The notes under the pieces are model-generated. The model saw only the letters and a list, made by a program, of their open reading frames with translations. It was not told where the DNA came from and ran no database searches. Source: Aggregatilineales bacterium (GTDB lineage: Bacteria; Chloroflexota; Anaerolineae; Aggregatilineales; Ch27). From it: a stretch of 64,000 bases of DNA. Both the position numbers and the translations under genes were made by a program. The stretch is taken from positions 62,001 to 126,000 of the forward strand of contig JARKOQ010000096.1 of assembly GCA_029976005.1 (NCBI GenBank), written 5' to 3'. Positions 36,700 through 45,919 of the stretch are shown here, piece by piece. Each line of letters starts with the position of its first letter. The first letter of the stretch is position 1.

Positions 36700-39600
36700 C
36701 TAGGGAACGACGCGCCGGACGCTGAGAACCACGTCCTCCTCGTCGATCGTGAAGCTCTGGCTGAAGGCGTCCTGGCCGGGTTCGCTGCTCAACAGCGCGT
36801 CCGCCAGGGTCTCGCCGCTTACGTAGTCCATGTGGGCCTTGATGGCCTTGACCACGCGCTTCGATCCCTGGTAGGTGACCACGATCCGGTCGCTGATCTC
36901 GAAATCGGCATCGCGGCGCATCGTCTGGATGCGGCGGACGACCTCGCGGGCCAGCCCTTCGAGCACCAGGTCTTCGCTCAGGGTAATGTTCAGCGCCGCC
37001 AGGTAGCCGGCATCCTCCGCCAGGGCATACCCTTCGGCCGCGCGCTGCTGGACTTCCACTTCCTCCGGCAGGGCTTCATAGTCCTGCCCGTCCAGCGTCA
37101 CCGTCACGCTCTGCCCCGCCAGCAGGGTCCTGGCCCAGCGCGCCACGTCTTCGGGCGCGCCCTCGCGCAGGGCCTTCTGCACGCGCGGGAAGTCCTTGCC
37201 GAACTTCCTGCCCAGCTTGGCCGGCAACGGGTTCAGCGCGTAGGCGACCACGTCGCCAGCGCCATCCAGGATCGTGACTTTACGGACGTTCAGCTCGTCG
37301 GCGATCAGGTCGCTCAGGCGGCCGATCGACTCGCGCTCGCTGGCGGAACGCAGTGCGAACGCCGCCTCCAGCAAGGGCTGGCGCACGCGCAGGTTGACGC
37401 TCTCGCGCGCGGCGCGCCCCAGGCTGACCAGACGCTGCGCCAGCGCCATCCCGTCCATCAGCTCCCGGTCGATCAGGCCCTCGTTGACCTCCGGCCAGGC
37501 GGCCAGGTGGACGCTGTCCGGCGCGCCGGGCTTCACACCGGCCACCAGATTACGGTAAAGCATCTCCGCCATGAAAGGCATCATCGGGGCCAGCAGATGG
37601 GCCAGGGTCGTCAGCACTTCGTACAGCGTGGCATAGGCGCTGCCACTGTCCTCCGACTTCCAGAAGCGCCGCCGCGACAGGCGCACGTACCAGTTGCTGA
37701 GCTGGTCGACGAAACTCTGGATCGGCCGCGCCGCGCCCGGCGCATCGTAGGCTTCCAGGGCGGCCGTCACCTCGCGCACCAGGCCGTGCAGTTCGCTGAG
37801 TACCCAGCGGTCGAGCGGATCGCGGGCCGCGACCGGCGGCGCGGGCTGTTCCGGCGACCACCCTTCCAGGTTGGCGTAGGTCACGAAAAAGCTGTAGGTG
37901 TTCCACAGAGTCAGCCAGAACTTGGTGACCACCTCGCCCACCAGGTCGAGGCTGAAACGGCGCGGCTCGCCGGGCGGGCCGGAGGTATACATGTACCAGC
38001 GGAAGGCGTCGCCCCCATACTTATTAAAGACCTGCCACGGCTCGACGAACGTCTCCGGCCGGCTCTTGGACATCTTGAGGCCGTTCTCGTCGAGGATGTG
38101 GCCGAGGCTGATCACATTCTTGTAGGCCACGCTGTCGAACACCAGTCCGGAAATGGCGTGCAGGCTGTAGAACCAGCCGCGCGTCTGATCGACCGCCTCG
38201 CAGATGTAGTCAGCCGGATACTGTTCCTTGAACATCTCCTGGTTGCGGTGGGGATATCCCCACTGCGCCGCCGGCATCGAGCCGGAGTCAAACCAGACGT
38301 CGATCAGCTCCGGCACGCGATACATGGTGCCGTGTCCATTGCATTCCCGGCAGGCCCAATGGACTTCATCCACGTAGGGCCGGTGCAGGTCGAGGTTGCT
38401 CTGGTCGAAGCCGCTCAGGCGCGACAGCTCATCCACGCTGCTGACGCACAGCATGTGGCCGCACTCCGGGTTGTCGCAGCGCCAGATCGGGAGCGGCGTG
38501 CCCCAGTAGCGCTCGCGGCCCAGCGCCCAGTCCTTGAGGTCTTCCAGCCAGTTACCGAACCGCCCATCGCGGATGTGGCTCGGCACCCAGTTGATAGTCT
38601 GGTTCAGCGCGATCAGCCGGTCGCGGTATTCCGTGGTAGCCACGAACCAGGTATCGCGCGCATAGTACAGCAGCGGTGAGTTGCAGCGCCAGCAGAAGGG
38701 ATAGCTGTGTTCGTACAGGGTCACACGGTACATCAGGCCGCGCCCCTGCAAATCCTTGATGATCTCCGCGTCGGCGTCCTTGACCCACATCCCGCGCCAG
38801 GGCCGCACCGCGTCGATGAACGCGCCGTTCGGCAGGACCGTCTCCAGAACCGGAAGGCCGTACTTCTTGCCGACCTGCATGTCGTCCTGGCCGAACGCGG
38901 GGGCGATGTGGACGATGCCGGAGCCTTCCTCCGTGCTCACGAAGTCGCCTTCGACCACGTAGGCATAGTCCTGCTCGACCGGCAGGAAGGTGAACAGCGG
39001 GCTGTAATGCTTGCCGGTCAGCGTGCTGCCTTTGAAGCGATCGAGGACGCGGTAAGCGTCGCGGTTCTTGAGCGCGTAGGACAGCAGGGCCTCGGCCAGG
39101 ATCAGCCGCTCGACACCGCCGTCCTCGGTCGGGCCTTCGATCAGCACGTAGTCCACGTCGCGGCCCACCGCCAGGGCCACATTGCCCGGCAGCGTCCAGG
39201 GTGTGGTCGTCCAGACCAGGAAATAGGTACCCGGCTCGTCCCGCAGGGGGAAGCGCACGAAGACGCTGGGGTCCTTGACGTCCTTGTAGCCCTGGGCGAC
39301 CTCGTGGCTGCTCAGGGGCGTGCCGCAGCGCGCGCAGTAGGGCACGACCCGCTTGCCCTTGTAGAGCAGCTTCTTGTCCCACAACTGGCGCAGCAGCCAC
39401 CACACCGACTCGATGTACTCGTTGGTGAAGGTGACGTAGGCATCGTCGAGGCTGACCCAGTAGGCCATGCGCTCGCTGAACTTCTCCCACTCGTTGATGT
39501 AGCGGAAGACGCTCTGGCGGCACTTCTCATTGAACGGCGCGATGCCGTAAGCCTCGATCTCTTTTTTGTCCTTGAGGCCGAGTTCTTTCTCAACCTCGAT

Positions 39601-39879
39601 CTCGACCGGCAGGCCGTGCGTATCCCACCCACCCTTGCGCAGGACGTAATAGCCGCGCATCGTCTTGAAGCGTGGGAACAGGTCCTTGAAGGCCCGCGCG
39701 ATCACGTGGTGGGTGCCGGGCTTGCCGTTGGCCGTCGGCGGCCCCTCGTAGAACACGAAGCGCGGCCGGTCTTCCCGCTCGGACATGGTCCGCTCGAAAA
39801 CGTGGCTTCGCCGCCAGAATTCGAGCTGCTCATTCTCCAGGTCGGGGATATTCACTTTGGCAGATACTGGCTTGAACAT
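36700..39879 (-). CDS. ileS: Isoleucyl-tRNA synthetase, type 2, with GTHH signature
   Basis: A 1059-residue IleRS that charges tRNA-Ile. It matches the type 2 (eukaryote-like) lineage: W-D-T-H-G-L-P-V-E-I-E-V-E-K, C-A-R-C-G-T-P-L-S-S-H-E-V-A and S-R-P-E-T-F-V-E-P-W, with the K-M-S-K-S loop intact. The class I signature at residues 55-58 is G-T-H-H; aligned to T-A-N-G-x-P-H-V-G-H of the Thermus enzyme, first and third positions are swapped. Such GxHH type 2 enzymes are known to be extremely mupirocin-resistant. An editing domain and a C-terminal anticodon domain are present. The ATG follows CGGAG; a structured leader with a short ORF precedes it. Confidence 0.95.
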   Translation of the reverse strand: MFKPVSAKVNIPDLENEQLEFWRRSHVFERTMSEREDRPRFVFYEGPPTANGKPGTHHVIARAFKDLFPRFKTMRGYYVLRKGGWDTHGLPVEIEVEKELGLKDKKEIEAYGIAPFNEKCRQSVFRYINEWEKFSERMAYWVSLDDAYVTFTNEYIESVWWLLRQLWDKKLLYKGKRVVPYCARCGTPLSSHEVAQGYKDVKDPSVFVRFPLRDEPGTYFLVWTTTPWTLPGNVALAVGRDVDYVLIEGPTEDGGVERLILAEALLSYALKNRDAYRVLDRFKGSTLTGKHYSPLFTFLPVEQDYAYVVEGDFVSTEEGSGIVHIAPAFGQDDMQVGKKYGLPVLETVLPNGAFIDAVRPWRGMWVKDADAEIIKDLQGRGLMYRVTLYEHSYPFCWRCNSPLLYYARDTWFVATTEYRDRLIALNQTINWVPSHIRDGRFGNWLEDLKDWALGRERYWGTPLPIWRCDNPECGHMLCVSSVDELSRLSGFDQSNLDLHRPYVDEVHWACRECNGHGTMYRVPELIDVWFDSGSMPAAQWGYPHRNQEMFKEQYPADYICEAVDQTRGWFYSLHAISGLVFDSVAYKNVISLGHILDENGLKMSKSRPETFVEPWQVFNKYGGDAFRWYMYTSGPPGEPRRFSLDLVGEVVTKFWLTLWNTYSFFVTYANLEGWSPEQPAPPVAARDPLDRWVLSELHGLVREVTAALEAYDAPGAARPIQSFVDQLSNWYVRLSRRRFWKSEDSGSAYATLYEVLTTLAHLLAPMMPFMAEMLYRNLVAGVKPGAPDSVHLAAWPEVNEGLIDRELMDGMALAQRLVSLGRAARESVNLRVRQPLLEAAFALRSASERESIGRLSDLIADELNVRKVTILDGAGDVVAYALNPLPAKLGRKFGKDFPRVQKALREGAPEDVARWARTLLAGQSVTVTLDGQDYEALPEEVEVQQRAAEGYALAEDAGYLAALNITLSEDLVLEGLAREVVRRIQTMRRDADFEISDRIVVTYQGSKRVVKAIKAHMDYVSGETLADALLSSEPGQDAFSQSFTIDEEDVVLSVRRVVP

Positions 39880-40110: not shown

Positions 40111-40647
40111 TCAGTCCGGCCGGGGCATCCAGTTCACTTCCCTGGCAATCGAAAAATGGGTGCGTCCATCCCCGGTATTATAACCATCGGAGATGGAAAC
40201 TTTCCAATTCGCGCTGAATTCACCAAACGTGATCGTACCTTGACAATATCCTACACCAGATGCCCCGCCTTGAGCAGGGTCAGTCCGCCCCGATGGGCAG
40301 GAAACCAGCGGTTCCAGGGCGCACGACTCCGCCTGCGTCTGGTACCAGGCATAAATCTCGCAGCCTGTGGCCTCGCTGCTGTAGTCCCATTCGTCCACGC
40401 CATAGGCCACCCCGCGGTGTTCCACCAGCCGGGCCGGCTCGAAGATCGGCGGGTCGGGCGGGCTGACCAGTCCGGCCAGTGGCCCGGCCACCGCCGCGAT
40501 GATCGCGGCCGCCACAGCCAGACTCCCCACCCCCACGGCCACGATCAACCAGAGGGGCAGCCCGCCTGAGCCTGGGCCGCGCTCCGCGTCGCCAGGCTCC
40601 GCCGGGGAAGCGTCGGGGTTCGATCCGGCCGGGTCTACTGGCCCCAT
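40111..40647 (-). CDS. Small single-pass membrane protein of unknown function
   Basis: A 178-residue protein. A Pro/Gly/Asp-rich N-terminal segment (1-30) is followed by one transmembrane helix (about 32-58) and an exported domain of about 115 residues. That domain has five Cys, in S-E-A-T-G-C-E-I-Y-A-W-Y, A-E-S-C-A-L, V-S-C-P and G-Y-C-Q-G. No family is recognised. Its start overlaps the end of the preceding small membrane gene by 13 bp, so it belongs to the TPR operon. It lies 230 bp before the ileS start. Confidence 0.65.
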   Translation of the reverse strand: MGPVDPAGSNPDASPAEPGDAERGPGSGGLPLWLIVAVGVGSLAVAAAIIAAVAGPLAGLVSPPDPPIFEPARLVEHRGVAYGVDEWDYSSEATGCEIYAWYQTQAESCALEPLVSCPSGRTDPAQGGASGVGYCQGTITFGEFSANWKVSISDGYNTGDGRTHFSIAREVNWMPRPD

Positions 40648-41090
40648 ACCTGCTCGATGTCGATCAGGGTGCGGCCGGCATACTCCCCCAGGCCAGGCTG
40701 AACGACGACGATGGTGTACTGGGTCACGAAGAAGGAGGAACCGTCGGCGATGCAGCGGTAGCTCACCGCCGGTTCGTTCGGGTCGCTGGACGAGTTGGTC
40801 AGGACGGTGCAGTTTTCGCCCATCTCCCGCACGTAGAACCCGCCGACCTCTTCCGCCGAGCTGTTGCTGACGTAGCGCAGCCGGCCGTGTCCCTGCGACA
40901 GGATCGCTTCGGGACCGACCTGTTCCGAGTCGGGATAGATCGGCACGGCCAGAGGCATGTTGCGGGACGATTGGAACGCGGAAAAGGCCAGCCAGGCCCC
41001 CCCGACCACCAGCACGACGCCCGCCAGTAGAATTAGGGCCAGCCGCAGCATCGGGTTACGGCGCTGCTTCGAGGTCTTCTGTTGGCTCAT
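40635..41090 (-). CDS. Small single-pass membrane protein of unknown function
   Basis: A 151-residue protein with a basic N-terminus, one transmembrane helix (about 15-36) and an exported domain. That domain starts with P-I-Y-P-D-S-E and has Y-V-S-N-S-S-A-E-E-V-G-G-F-Y and two Cys (E-N-C-T, Y-R-C-I). The P-x-Y-P-x-S/A start followed by a V-x-x-F-Y segment recurs in small Chloroflexota lipoproteins (impression, not searched). The ATG at 41090 follows AGGAGGACTCC and overlaps the upstream TPR gene by 35 bp. Function unknown. Confidence 0.65.
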   Translation of the reverse strand: MSQQKTSKQRRNPMLRLALILLAGVVLVVGGAWLAFSAFQSSRNMPLAVPIYPDSEQVGPEAILSQGHGRLRYVSNSSAEEVGGFYVREMGENCTVLTNSSSDPNEPAVSYRCIADGSSFFVTQYTIVVVQPGLGEYAGRTLIDIEQVWGQ

Positions 41091-41901
41091 GGAGTCCTCC
41101 TGCCAATAAATGCTCAATTCGACCGATATCCTCAGCCAGGGCCACGCCGTAGGGCGTCGCGCTAAAACGCGCTGCTTCCGCGCGCCACAGGCCCAGCCCA
41201 TGCTCGTAACGGCTCAGGTCTTCCCTGGCCTCGTCCGGCGCCGATTCCGACAGGCGCGCTTGCAGGTACACGGCCATCAGCCGGCGGTGCGGCTCCAGCT
41301 CGATCGCGGCCGCCTGCCGGAGCGATTGGGCCGCCGCTTCCGGCTGGCCGGCGTACACCTGGGCCAGGGCCAGATCGGCCACGATCGTCGGCTGGGCGCG
41401 CCGTTCGAGCGCCAGCTCGATCAATGCCGCCGCTTCATCGAAGCGCCCCTGCGCCAGCCGGGTGCGCCCCAGGCCGTAGGCCGCGATCGGGGAATTCGGA
41501 TCGGCCTCGTGAGCCTGGACGAGCACCTGCTCGCTCTCGTCCAGCCGCCCGACCTGGCGGTAGGCATTCCCCAGCAGGGTCAATCCAGCCGTGTCCAGCG
41601 GAGTCGATTCCTCCGCCTCTCTGAGCATGCGAATAGCGCCCTCGAAATCCCCGGCCATGTACAGGCGGCGCGCCCGGCGCACCTCCGGATGCTGCCGCCA
41701 GAGCGTGAGCAGGATCATCCCCTGCACGACGATGAAAAGGGCAAACAGCCCCACGATGGCCGCGATCTGGACCTCGCGCGAGCCGACGAAAGACAGCCCC
41801 ACGAGGATCAGCGACACGAAGCCAAACACCTCAATCAGCCGCCGCACCCGCGCCGGAAGCTCGCGCCAGGTCGCGCGCGCCTGCATCACGAACCGGCTCA
41901 T
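41056..41901 (-). CDS. Membrane TPR protein C
   Basis: A 281-residue protein with two N-terminal transmembrane helices (about 22-40 and 45-68) and a cytoplasmic TPR array (about 75-215: A-R-R-L-Y-M-A-G-D-F-E-G-A-I, G-N-A-Y-R-Q-V-G-R-L-D-E-S). It ends with a signature shared with its two upstream paralogues: G-L-x-x-W, then Y-G-x-x-L-A-x-D-I-x-x-I-E-x-L-L. It overlaps the upstream gene by ATGA. TPRs mediate protein contacts; the partner is unknown. Confidence 0.75.
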   Translation of the reverse strand: MSRFVMQARATWRELPARVRRLIEVFGFVSLILVGLSFVGSREVQIAAIVGLFALFIVVQGMILLTLWRQHPEVRRARRLYMAGDFEGAIRMLREAEESTPLDTAGLTLLGNAYRQVGRLDESEQVLVQAHEADPNSPIAAYGLGRTRLAQGRFDEAAALIELALERRAQPTIVADLALAQVYAGQPEAAAQSLRQAAAIELEPHRRLMAVYLQARLSESAPDEAREDLSRYEHGLGLWRAEAARFSATPYGVALAEDIGRIEHLLAGGLHEPTEDLEAAP

Positions 41902-42788
41902 GCACCCTCCTGCCCGGTGTGCGACTCGTCCGCTTCCAGCAGCGCCCGCTCGATCTCCTCCAGTTCACGCGCCAGCCGCTGCCCATATGACGTGCCGGCC
42001 AGCGGCAGCAGGCCGGACTTCCAGCCTTGCAGCCCGTCGCGCGCGCTGACCATCTTTGCGGCGGCGCGGGCGGCCTGGCGGGCGTCCCCGCTTTCGGCGT
42101 AGAAGTTCGCCAGGTGATAGTACACCCGCAGCGCATACATCGAGGGCAGCCGGTAGCGCGCGGTCTGCTCGAATGAGCCACGCGCCGCATCGAGGTCGCC
42201 CGCGTAAAGCTGCATCAACCCCAACTCGGACAGAATGACCCCGGCATCGGGATCGAGAGTCACCGCCCGGCTCAACACTTCGGCCGCCGCTTCGTAGGCC
42301 GCCTGGAGCCGGTACACGTTGCTCAGGGTCAGATAGGCGGCGGTCTCCCTCGGATAGACCGCGACGACTCGATCCGCCACCCGCTGCGCGTCCGCCAGCC
42401 GCCCGGCGTACCCGTAGGCGCTGGCCAGCAGCATCAGCACGTCGACCGTCTCCTTGCCTTCGGCAAGAAGCTGTTCCAGGATTGGGATCGCTTCATCGAA
42501 CTTGAAGGCTTCGATCAGGCGGTAAGCTTCCCCGTAGCCCGGCCCCTGCCGCCGGGTCTGAAGCCCCAGCAGGAACGCGGTGCTAAGGAACCACACCAGG
42601 AACATCGCGATGGCCACCCCCAGACCGATCAGGGCGAGCGTGGTCAACTGCGAAGGGGTGCTGTCCGCGAACATGCCGCGCCGGTTCAGGATGTATTCCC
42701 CGGCAATCCCGCCCAGGAAGGCCACGACCCCCAGAATCGCCAGCACCAGCGGTATCCGGGTCAGTCCAATCAACAAACGGCGTCTCAT
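41898..42788 (-). CDS. Membrane TPR protein B
   Basis: A 296-residue protein with two transmembrane helices (about 12-33 and 47-73), TPR repeats (about 85-235: F-K-F-D-E-A-I-P-I-L, A-Y-G-Y-A-G-R-L-A-D-A) and the shared C-terminal signature (G-L-Q-G-W...Y-G-Q-R-L-A-R-E-L-E-E-I-E-R-A-L-L). Both ends overlap neighbours by ATGA, so the three TPR genes are translationally coupled. No enzyme motif is seen. Confidence 0.75.
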   Translation of the reverse strand: MRRRLLIGLTRIPLVLAILGVVAFLGGIAGEYILNRRGMFADSTPSQLTTLALIGLGVAIAMFLVWFLSTAFLLGLQTRRQGPGYGEAYRLIEAFKFDEAIPILEQLLAEGKETVDVLMLLASAYGYAGRLADAQRVADRVVAVYPRETAAYLTLSNVYRLQAAYEAAAEVLSRAVTLDPDAGVILSELGLMQLYAGDLDAARGSFEQTARYRLPSMYALRVYYHLANFYAESGDARQAARAAAKMVSARDGLQGWKSGLLPLAGTSYGQRLARELEEIERALLEADESHTGQEGA

Positions 42789-43798
42789 ACCCCCGCCTCG
42801 TCTGCCGAACGCATCGCATCCAGAGCCTGGACCCCGGCCCCATCCGCGAGACGCTGCACAAGCGCGATATCTTCCGCCAACACCTGCCGCAGCGCGGCCG
42901 CCTGCTCGCTGGCGATGATCGTCTGCCACTCCTGGATGCCCCGCTTCAGGCGGCGCAGGCTGCCCAATTCCGCCTCCGCCTCGGCCGTCTGCCCCAATCG
43001 GGCATGCGCGCGGGCCAGCCAGAGATGAATCAGGACCCGATGGCGCGCGTCCGGGCGGCCTTCCTCCAGGGCACGCCGCAGGTGGGCGACGACCTGATCG
43101 CTCATCCCCAACCGATCCTCGATCATGCCCAGGTTGTAGGGCATCACCCATTGATCCGGCTCAACCTCGTTGGCCTGCCGAGCGTGGATCAACGCCTGTG
43201 GTAAGTCGCCTTCCTGAAGGTAGACCTCGGCCAGACCGTTGTACCCGACGCCGGACTGCGGCTCAAGCTCGACGATGCGGCGGTAGTCCTGGAGCGCCTT
43301 GATAGGCTTGCCCTGCAGACGATACAAATCCGCCCGGAAGCGATAGTGGCTCGATTCGGCCGGCTCCGCACGGATCAGGTCGCCCATGATTCGGATAGCT
43401 TCATCGTATTCGTTCCGCCGGAGATGGCGGATAGCCTGTTGGTACTCCCGGCGCACATTGCGCCGCAGCACGATCTGGGCCAGGATCAGCCAGCCCACCC
43501 CGGCCCCCACGAACCAGACCAGGAAGTCCGGAAGCAGGATGCCCAGGCCGAATCCCAGCACCAGCGGGCCGATCGAGACGATCAGCGGCCGCCGGTCGAG
43601 CGGGTCCAGCCGGCTGAGCAAGACGCCGACTGCCCCCACCAGGGCGACAAGAAACAACCCGTTCTGAACCGGAATCACCCACGGGACGTCCGTCCCCACG
43701 GCCTGAAGCATCAGGCTCAGCGTCCCCGTGATCGCCAGCAGCAAAAACAGCCCCCAGGCCCGCCGCGATCCAAGCCAAGCGATGAAGCGCCGGAACAT
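42785..43798 (-). CDS. Membrane TPR protein A
   Basis: A 337-residue protein with four hydrophobic segments in the first 110 residues, then TPR repeats (about 120-265: N-E-Y-D-E-A-I-R-I-M, Y-N-G-L-A-E-V-Y-L-Q-E-G-D-L). A diverged form of the shared end follows (G-I-Q-E-W...L-A-E-D-I-A-L-V-Q-R-L). The ATG at 43798 follows AAAGGTGGGG. It is the first of the three tandem paralogues and lies 14 bp after the 224-residue unknown gene. Confidence 0.75.
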   Translation of the reverse strand: MFRRFIAWLGSRRAWGLFLLLAITGTLSLMLQAVGTDVPWVIPVQNGLFLVALVGAVGVLLSRLDPLDRRPLIVSIGPLVLGFGLGILLPDFLVWFVGAGVGWLILAQIVLRRNVRREYQQAIRHLRRNEYDEAIRIMGDLIRAEPAESSHYRFRADLYRLQGKPIKALQDYRRIVELEPQSGVGYNGLAEVYLQEGDLPQALIHARQANEVEPDQWVMPYNLGMIEDRLGMSDQVVAHLRRALEEGRPDARHRVLIHLWLARAHARLGQTAEAEAELGSLRRLKRGIQEWQTIIASEQAAALRQVLAEDIALVQRLADGAGVQALDAMRSADEAGV

Positions 43799-43812
43799 GC
43801 CCCACCTTTCCC

Positions 43813-44487
43813 CTAACCGCTGCGCGCGTATTCCGCCAGTTCCACCGAGAGATACTCCGCCGGCAGCACCCAACGCACCGGAACGCCATGGGCATCCAGG
43901 TGCAGCCGCTGATCGCCGATCTCAGGCATCCTCAGCGCGAAGCCATACCCAAGTTGTGGCCCGTCCGGCCCCGGCACGATTTCCCGCCGGTCAAGCTCGG
44001 CGTCCACCTGGAGCAGCGCGGGCCACAGCGTCCCATGCTGAATCCCTGGGGCCACCAGGGAAACCGTCTGCCGGCCTTGCAGCCGCCGGTCGTAACCGGC
44101 CCACAGGAAGTTCTCGGTGATCGTGTGCCAGCCGTAGACCTCGTAGCTGGCGGGCAGGATCATCGTCTGGGTCTCGGTCCCATGTACCACCAGGGCATAA
44201 TCCGGCATGAACCGGTACTCGACCAGGTCGTCGCGCCCATCCTGCCAGCGCCAGTAGAACACCATTTGCACGGGGCGTCCCTCCGGATCGCGCAGCAGGT
44301 AGCAGGCCGAGATCGGGGTCGTGCCGCCGAACACGAGCTGGCTCCGCCAGATCAGCGCGCCGTCGGGCAGAGCGTGCGCCATCCAGTACTCCTGGATGCG
44401 CGTTGATTTGCCCCGGCGCAGCTGGCGATAAACTCCATGCGCCACCAGGGCTTCGTCCGGCTCAACCGGCGGCAGTATCGTATCCAT
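43813..44487 (-). CDS. Conserved-looking protein of unknown function
   Basis: A 224-residue soluble protein, not recognised. It is rich in aromatic and beta-type sequence: Y-W-M-A-H-A-L-P-D-G-A, R-S-Q-L-V-F-G-G, F-Y-W-R-W-Q-D-G, Y-E-V-Y-G-W-H-T-I, L-G-Y-G-F-A-L-R-M-P. No signal peptide or membrane helix is seen. It could be a lipocalin-like or hydrolase-accessory beta fold; this is weak inference. It lies 34 bp after alaX and 14 bp before TPR protein A, so it is within the directon. The start ATG at 44487 has a distant AAGGA. Confidence 0.6.
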   Translation of the reverse strand: MDTILPPVEPDEALVAHGVYRQLRRGKSTRIQEYWMAHALPDGALIWRSQLVFGGTTPISACYLLRDPEGRPVQMVFYWRWQDGRDDLVEYRFMPDYALVVHGTETQTMILPASYEVYGWHTITENFLWAGYDRRLQGRQTVSLVAPGIQHGTLWPALLQVDAELDRREIVPGPDGPQLGYGFALRMPEIGDQRLHLDAHGVPVRWVLPAEYLSVELAEYARSG

Positions 44488-44521: not shown

Positions 44522-45247
44522 TCAGGCCTGGTCGTCGAGGGCCACGTAAATGCGCTTGAAGATTCCGCCTTTGTTCTTGGTCTCGGTGATGCGAATCCGG
44601 CCGACCTCGGCGGTGCTGGCAACGTGCGTGCCCCCGTCCGCCTGCAAATCCAGGCCCACGATCTCCACCGTTCGAATTTCGAGAATGCCTTCCGGAAGCA
44701 AATTGACTTTGGTGCGGATCAGGTCCGGAATCTGGAAGGCCTCGTCGCGCGGCAGAATCCGCACCCGGACGGGCCGGTTCGCCGCCACTTCAATATTAAT
44801 CTTTTCTTCAATCTCGCGCACCAATTCCTGGTCGAAGCGCTCGAACTCGAAGTCCATCCGGCCGTGCAGCGGCTCCATATTGCCCCCCGTGACGCTGGCC
44901 CCGTAGTCGCGCCAGACCACGCCGCACAGGATGTGCATGGCCGTATGGGTGCGCATCAGGGCATAGCGCCAATCCCAGTCGATCGCGCCGCGAACCAGGC
45001 TCCCCACGGCGGGTAGCCCCTCGCTTTCGAGCACGTGGAGTACCTCCGCCCCCGCCTTGCGAACCGCCGTGACCGGGATCGCCGTCCCGTCGATATCCAG
45101 ACTGCCCCGATCGGCCGGCTGTCCGCCGCCACCCGGATAAAATACCGTCCGATCCAGGCTCACCGCATGCTGATCGGCGTCGATGCCGGTCACCCGGGCC
45201 TCGAATTCGCGGATGTAGCTCTCCGTCTGGAACAGCAGCTCGGTCAT
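44522..45247 (-). CDS. Alanyl-tRNA editing protein AlaX
   Basis: A 241-residue free-standing editing protein of the AlaX-M type, which hydrolyses Ser- or Gly-mischarged tRNA-Ala. It has Y-P-G-G-G-G-Q-P near residue 40, the zinc motif R-T-H-T-A-M-H-I-L (H-x3-H), and L-Q-A-D-G-G-T-H-V near residue 200. There the usual Cys of C-x3-H is Asp, as in some AlaX proteins. The ATG at 45247 is chosen because the upstream frame has no motif. It is the first gene of the directon that ends with ileS. Confidence 0.9.
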   Translation of the reverse strand: MTELLFQTESYIREFEARVTGIDADQHAVSLDRTVFYPGGGGQPADRGSLDIDGTAIPVTAVRKAGAEVLHVLESEGLPAVGSLVRGAIDWDWRYALMRTHTAMHILCGVVWRDYGASVTGGNMEPLHGRMDFEFERFDQELVREIEEKINIEVAANRPVRVRILPRDEAFQIPDLIRTKVNLLPEGILEIRTVEIVGLDLQADGGTHVASTAEVGRIRITETKNKGGIFKRIYVALDDQA

Positions 45248-45305
45248 CGCCGTATGTCCTCTCCGGTCTTGCCGCCCGGCTGGGGCGGCCACGTCACGCC
45301 CGCCA

Positions 45306-45314
45306 AGCATACCA
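45306..45314 (-). promoter_or_regulatory. Candidate extended -10 promoter of the alaX directon
   Basis: Minus-strand TATGCT (45306-45311) is preceded by TGG (45312-45314). No -35 match is seen at the usual distance. Confidence 0.4.
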
Positions 45315-45442
45315 CACCGGCCTGCCCCAGAGGGATCAAACAATGAGATGTTTTTTTAAGAGCGATCCTGTAAACTATGGGCGTAATCAGGATCATGCGG
45401 CGTGCTTTCACGCGGATTGTCGGCGTAATGGTGGTCATGCCT

Positions 45443-45919
45443 ATGAACACCCCACAACAGATGCCCACCCCCCAGGAGGCCGAAGCCGTTTTGCGTCAGG
45501 CCGGACACCGCATCACGCCGCAGCGCCAGTTGCTGCTGGAACTGCTGCGCAACCACAAAACGTTCCTGGATGCCGAACAGGTCTACACGCTGGCCGCCAA
45601 ATACGAAGGCGACGCCAGCCTTGCCACGGTCTACCGCAATCTTCAGCTTTTTGTCGAGCTTGGCCTGGTCGAAGCCCGCTACCTGGACCCGGAACACAAG
45701 CGTGAATACTACCGCATCACCGGCGGCGCGGAGTATCATTACATGACCTGCCGGGGTTGCGGCAAGATGGTCCCCGTCGATCCTGAGATCATCCAGGAAA
45801 CTTCGCTGAACTGGGCCACCGCGCATGGGCTGACCCTGATCACCGCCCATGCCTGTTACACAGGCTACTGCGCGGACTGCACCCGCCAACGGGCCGGGCA
45901 TCCCCGGAACAATGAATAG
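45443..45919 (+). CDS. Fur-family metal-responsive regulator
   Basis: A 158-residue Fur-superfamily repressor. A winged helix (about 10-85: Q-A-G-H-R-I-T-P-Q-R, A-S-L-A-T-V-Y-R-N-L) precedes a dimerisation/metal domain with H-Y-M-T-C-R-G-C-G (C-x2-C zinc site), then H-A-C-Y-T-G-Y-C-A-D-C. Fur, Zur, PerR or Nur cannot be separated from sequence alone. The ATG at 45443 is preferred because GGTGG lies 8 nt upstream; ATGs at 45377, 45395 and 45437 are alternatives. It is divergent from alaX. Confidence 0.88.
   Translation: MNTPQQMPTPQEAEAVLRQAGHRITPQRQLLLELLRNHKTFLDAEQVYTLAAKYEGDASLATVYRNLQLFVELGLVEARYLDPEHKREYYRITGGAEYHYMTCRGCGKMVPVDPEIIQETSLNWATAHGLTLITAHACYTGYCADCTRQRAGHPRNNE

Follow-up and report, generated by a model that had tools for sequence, protein, structure and literature searches.

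A naturally swapped GTHH signature in the type 2 isoleucyl-tRNA synthetase of an Aggregatilineales bacterium, with predicted mupirocin resistance

Introduction

Many type 2 isoleucyl-tRNA synthetases (IleRS2) carry the class I signature HXGH with its first and third positions exchanged, and this G/AXHH form has been tied to mupirocin inhibition constants (Ki) reaching the millimolar range (Brkic et al. 2023, PMC10485003). The natural ALHH enzyme of D. radiodurans has a Ki of 6.6 mM, which falls 823-fold, to 8.1 µM, after return to HVGH, and exchange to GVHH raises the Ki about 200–400-fold in the Thermus and Priestia enzymes (from 0.20 to 35 µM in Thermus IleRS2 and from 1.08 to 460 µM in that of P. 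megaterium; PMC10485003). The published explanation is that in IleRS2 the third His occupies the catalytic position and conflicts sterically with mupirocin; the same work reports little catalytic cost of the exchange in its natural carriers (PMC10485003). Position two of the motif was described as hydrophobic; the minimum history inferred for the swap was two gains with one reversion, and poor support for the early IleRS2 branch was blamed on scarce Chloroflexota and Planctomycetota sequences (PMC10485003).

The window analysed here, a stretch of 64,000 nucleotides in contig JARKOQ010000096.1 of an Aggregatilineales bacterium (the host), holds an ileS2 gene whose product resembles these enzymes. 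Like the G/AXHH IleRS2 of S. griseus and D. radiodurans (ALHH), it is of type 2, has positions one and three swapped, retains KMSKS and belongs to a kind that can serve as sole housekeeping IleRS. Unlike them, it has Thr at the supposedly hydrophobic position two, PET with one extra residue in place of G-N after KMSKS, and GYPHR for HYPFE, and it comes from Chloroflexota, a phylum scarcely represented in that work. The IleRS2 of T. thermophilus (1ile) has the same architecture but a canonical HVGH, a Ki of 0.20 µM and KMSKSKGN; the GVHH enzyme of P. megaterium (8c8w) has the swap at identical positions but is a laboratory mutant of an HVGH enzyme, likewise with KMSKSKGN. The link between G/AXHH and mupirocin is already published and the host enzyme itself is an ordinary case of it. 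The main gain is one of scale, with about 200 IleRS, nearly all from Chloroflexota, among which the swap prevails, interchange is repeated and position two is polar.

Results and discussion

A full-length IleRS2 with a swapped signature

The ileS2 frame (Table 1) opens with ATG, is full length and scores 919.7 bits against a TIGR00392 cut-off of 621.4, which identifies its product as an isoleucyl-tRNA synthetase. A class I catalytic domain is followed by the anticodon-binding domain and a C-terminal DUF5915, and the editing-site motifs WTTTPWTLP and GIVHIAPAFGQDD are intact. Searches of solved structures returned the GVHH P. megaterium IleRS2 as the best full-length match (8c8w, E 2e-289), above the wild type, and Thermus IleRS at E 3e-287, compared with 1e-104 to 8e-71 for IleRS1 structures; with the first 160 residues alone, phmmer gave Thermus IleRS, an IleRS2, as the best solved match. 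The IleRS1 marks Tyr59 and NKIL (PMC4861432) are missing, Thr48 and ARAF standing in their places, while Ala61 and His594 are found where IleRS1 has the mupirocin-binding residues Asn70 and Phe586 (PMC10485003). The HYPFE mark of eukaryote-like IleRS2 (PMC4861432) reads GYPHR in the host. HYPFE is present in most Chloroflexota rows, and it varies in a minority of both the GXHH and the HXGH enzymes of the phylum, all clearly IleRS2 by overall similarity, so we regard it as a typical but non-strict mark of IleRS2. The similarity values and the missing IleRS1 marks bear out the type 2 assignment made in an earlier note on this DNA, and the host enzyme is confirmed by sequence comparison as a full-length IleRS2.

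Table 1. Features of the ileS2 locus (positions in the window)
Feature	Residues	Positions	Strand	Remarks
ileS2, type 2 isoleucyl-tRNA synthetase, 1059 aa, intact		36700..39879	(-)	TIGR00392 919.7 bits; top PDB matches are IleRS2 structures
Swapped class I signature Gly-Thr-His-His at the HXGH site	55-58	39706..39717	(-)	Ungapped alignment to 1ile, 8c8u, 8c8w; multiple alignment of 204 IleRS
GYPHR in place of HYPFE, the form of most IleRS2	541-545	38245..38259	(-)	
KMSKS loop KMSKSRPETF	602-611	38047..38076	(-)	Gly-Asn replaced, one residue added
Anticodon-binding domain PF08264	690-836	37372..37812	(-)	
C-terminal DUF5915, PF19302	857-1056	36712..37311	(-)	

Translation and alignment both give G-T-H-H at the signature residues, as the earlier note had read them, in the context FYEGPPTANGKPGTHHVIARAFKD (PPTANGKP-GTHH-VIARAFKD). 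In phmmer alignments of the first 160 residues, gap-free around the motif, GTHH is matched exactly to the HVGH of two enzymes, T. thermophilus IleRS (1ile) and P. megaterium IleRS2 (8c8u), and to the GVHH engineered into the latter (8c8w); when 204 IleRS rows are aligned together, these columns contain HIGH in E. coli IleRS1. The ungapped placement on the HVGH of 1ile upholds the exchange of first and third positions that had been judged by eye against Thermus, and these alignments exclude another H-x-G-H at the signature site, the finding that had been named as counting against it. The motif begins with Gly (Ala being the other accepted residue) and has His in third and fourth place, and in these positions it fits the G/AXHH definition.

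KMSKS itself is intact (residues 602-606), but the tail behind it reads KMSKSRPETFVEP where nearly all relatives have KMSKSx-GNVVDP, and is one residue longer. The KMSKSRPETF-type tail is common to family members G315, G336 and G337, with RKETF in G338, and occurs in G371, G385 and G353, three further genomes of the order (loci L085, L255-L257 and L304-L306 besides the host); since it is shared by family members and by three other genomes of the order, the change is real and inherited. Searches of the PMC10485003 main text brought up no mention of it. A tentative possibility is that, in the host's family, the swapped signature and a KMSKS loop lacking Gly-Asn and carrying one extra residue make up a re-shaped, as yet undescribed ATP site, with possible consequences for catalysis or inhibitor binding on top of those known for GXHH. 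Other KMSKS changes were seen within GXHH enzymes, namely KQSKS, KASKS, KASKH, KMSTS and KHSKS (L231, L232, L293, L297, L309, L318).

Predicted mupirocin resistance

By analogy with the structure of the P. megaterium GVHH mutant, His57 at position three would supply the imidazole, normally that of the first His, for transition-state stabilisation in isoleucine activation. Bound mupirocin would push the signature back towards its position in IleRS1, where the position-three His would clash with the inhibitor and binding would be lost, leaving the host highly resistant without an acquired gene. The catalytic role of His57, the steric clash and a Ki of at least tens of micromolar, probably near millimolar, are carried over from the enzymes of PMC10485003; our own analysis contributes the sequence and its alignment, the assignment to type 2, the finding that the motif is conserved throughout the order and the single IleRS of each genome searched. 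Taken together, these lines make it highly probable that the host relies on an active housekeeping IleRS2 with HXGH naturally swapped to GTHH and is highly mupirocin-resistant. RPETF for xGN after KMSKS and GYPHR for HYPFE set the host enzyme apart from those assayed, and the size of the swap effect depends on the background, since the swap alone gave a Ki of merely 35 µM in Thermus IleRS2. The association of GxHH IleRS2 with extreme mupirocin resistance, cited in the earlier note, agrees with the Ki data of PMC10485003, and the note's expectation that the host is resistant by way of its housekeeping enzyme is well founded as a prediction.

Distribution and history of the swap

Nearly all named relatives of the host are metagenome-assembled genomes of Anaerolineae, Ardenticatenia or other Chloroflexi. 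Four other genomes of the family were found, with IleRS 74–83% identical to that of the host, and all four have GTHH. Across the order, G/AXHH occurs in 53 of 53 readable IleRS (GTHH 19, GSHH 19, GIHH 10, GVHH 2, GLHH 2 and ASHH 1). Position two of the motif is wider than the published description, Thr (19, and the host's own residue) or Ser (20) being the rule among the 53 enzymes of the order.

For the phylum, exact DNA pattern matches, part of them translated, were counted in 201 sampled Chloroflexota genomes. TANGxP-GXHH had a match in 72 genomes, one of them (G022) by a chance match alone, and a second pattern, ITANNPM-GXHH, in 87, the two sets being otherwise non-overlapping; one or other swapped-motif pattern was present in 158 of the 201. 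Two matches to the GXHH DNA pattern, G111:C63 and G022:C7, were discarded as chance hits outside IleRS. Among 198 rows with a readable site (three non-Chloroflexota included), 171 have GXHH and 27 HXGH, E. coli being among the latter; these rows were partly picked by motif pattern, and the count over 201 genomes is the fairer estimate of frequency. In Chloroflexota the swapped motif is the usual condition and, because it is common to order and phylum, it is more plausibly an old character of the lineage than an adaptation specific to the host.

A second deep clade of Chloroflexota IleRS2, of PMHKS type, combines ITANNPM-GVHH with an altered KMSKS, [PEAD]MHKSxGN, in which the first Lys is lost and Ser is replaced by His (most of L159-L211, plus L322 and L323); its pattern is the one matched by 87 of the 201 genomes. 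Both kinds of IleRS2 occur together in some genomes (G276, G299, G249, G225 and G253).

Changes between GXHH and HXGH numbered 6 on a FastTree phylogeny of the 198 rows with the motif columns removed, 4 of them forced by starred branches, and 5 on a mixture-model tree of 82 rows, 2 of them forced. On these trees swapped and canonical forms were interchanged repeatedly, about 5–6 times (2–4 forced by well-supported branches), in agreement, from a denser sample, with PMC10485003; the count and direction are approximate, some long branches of the trees being uncertain. Among the GXHH rows of the 82-row mixture-model tree, 4 changes are needed for Thr at position two, which probably had more than one origin.

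We lean slightly towards regarding the swap as a neutral or structurally driven old state of Chloroflexota IleRS2, with mupirocin insensitivity as a by-product and not the reason why it was kept. Its prevalence in phylum and order points this way, as do its presence in the deep PMHKS-type clade beside other active-site changes, the adjacency of swapped and canonical forms on the trees and the little catalytic cost in natural carriers (PMC10485003), although the back-and-forth change could equally track changing exposure to mupirocin-like compounds. This reading concerns why the motif exists and is compatible with the resistance mechanism proposed above. The survey also yields natural pairs of close relatives for testing the cost of the swap and its drivers.

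Gene copy number and housekeeping role

One IleRS locus, and no more, exceeded the TIGR00392 cut-off in the host genome, which is 82% complete; the six relatives searched, drawn from the family and the order and 95–98% complete, likewise had exactly one apiece, that of G273 being divided between two contigs. Neither a second IleRS nor an IleRS1 beside IleRS2 was found in the host genome or these six relatives; judged by their length and score, the remaining matches were LeuRS, ValRS or MetRS-like proteins. A ValRS match, present in every relative searched, is missing from the host genome, probably owing to its incomplete assembly. A second ileS could likewise be missing from a genome that is 82% complete and shows no ValRS, and since absence from the host alone is weak, the single-copy argument is carried by the six relatives. 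With one IleRS above the cut-off in the host and in each relative, the earlier note's wording that resistance runs through the housekeeping enzyme is reasonable, and the host IleRS2 is apparently the sole, ordinary isoleucine-charging enzyme.

It is very improbable that the host protein is instead a non-working duplicate or decaying copy, with another enzyme charging tRNA-Ile. Such a reading could draw on signature residues off the class I norm, on the loss of G-N after KMSKS and on the two IleRS genes of some class members, but the frame is full length, 74–83% identity is kept across four separate family genomes, the editing-site motifs are intact and the searches described above returned no other IleRS to take over the charging. 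A sequencing, frame or alignment error behind GTHH has a negligible chance and was rejected, as the alignment is ungapped on both sides of the motif, four family members in separate assemblies all have GTHH, and other families of the order have the swapped motif as well. MupA and MupB belong, like the host enzyme, to the type 2 IleRS family, but at 892 bits (NF000257) and 846 bits (NF000258) the host enzyme lies far under their 1900-bit cut-offs and its gene is a chromosomal, apparently housekeeping one; an acquired MupA/MupB gene was thus also rejected.

Genomic neighbourhood

Three neighbouring reading frames at 40635-43873 (-) encode TPR repeats and have hydrophobic stretches near their N-termini, and the small frame at 40635-41201 (-) in this neighbourhood has no Pfam match. 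At 44522-45343 (-) there is a gene for an AlaX-M-like alanyl-tRNA editing protein, scoring 276.5 bits and thus slightly below the NCBIfam cut-off of 300, which is adjoined by a Fur-family regulator at 45377-45919 (+).
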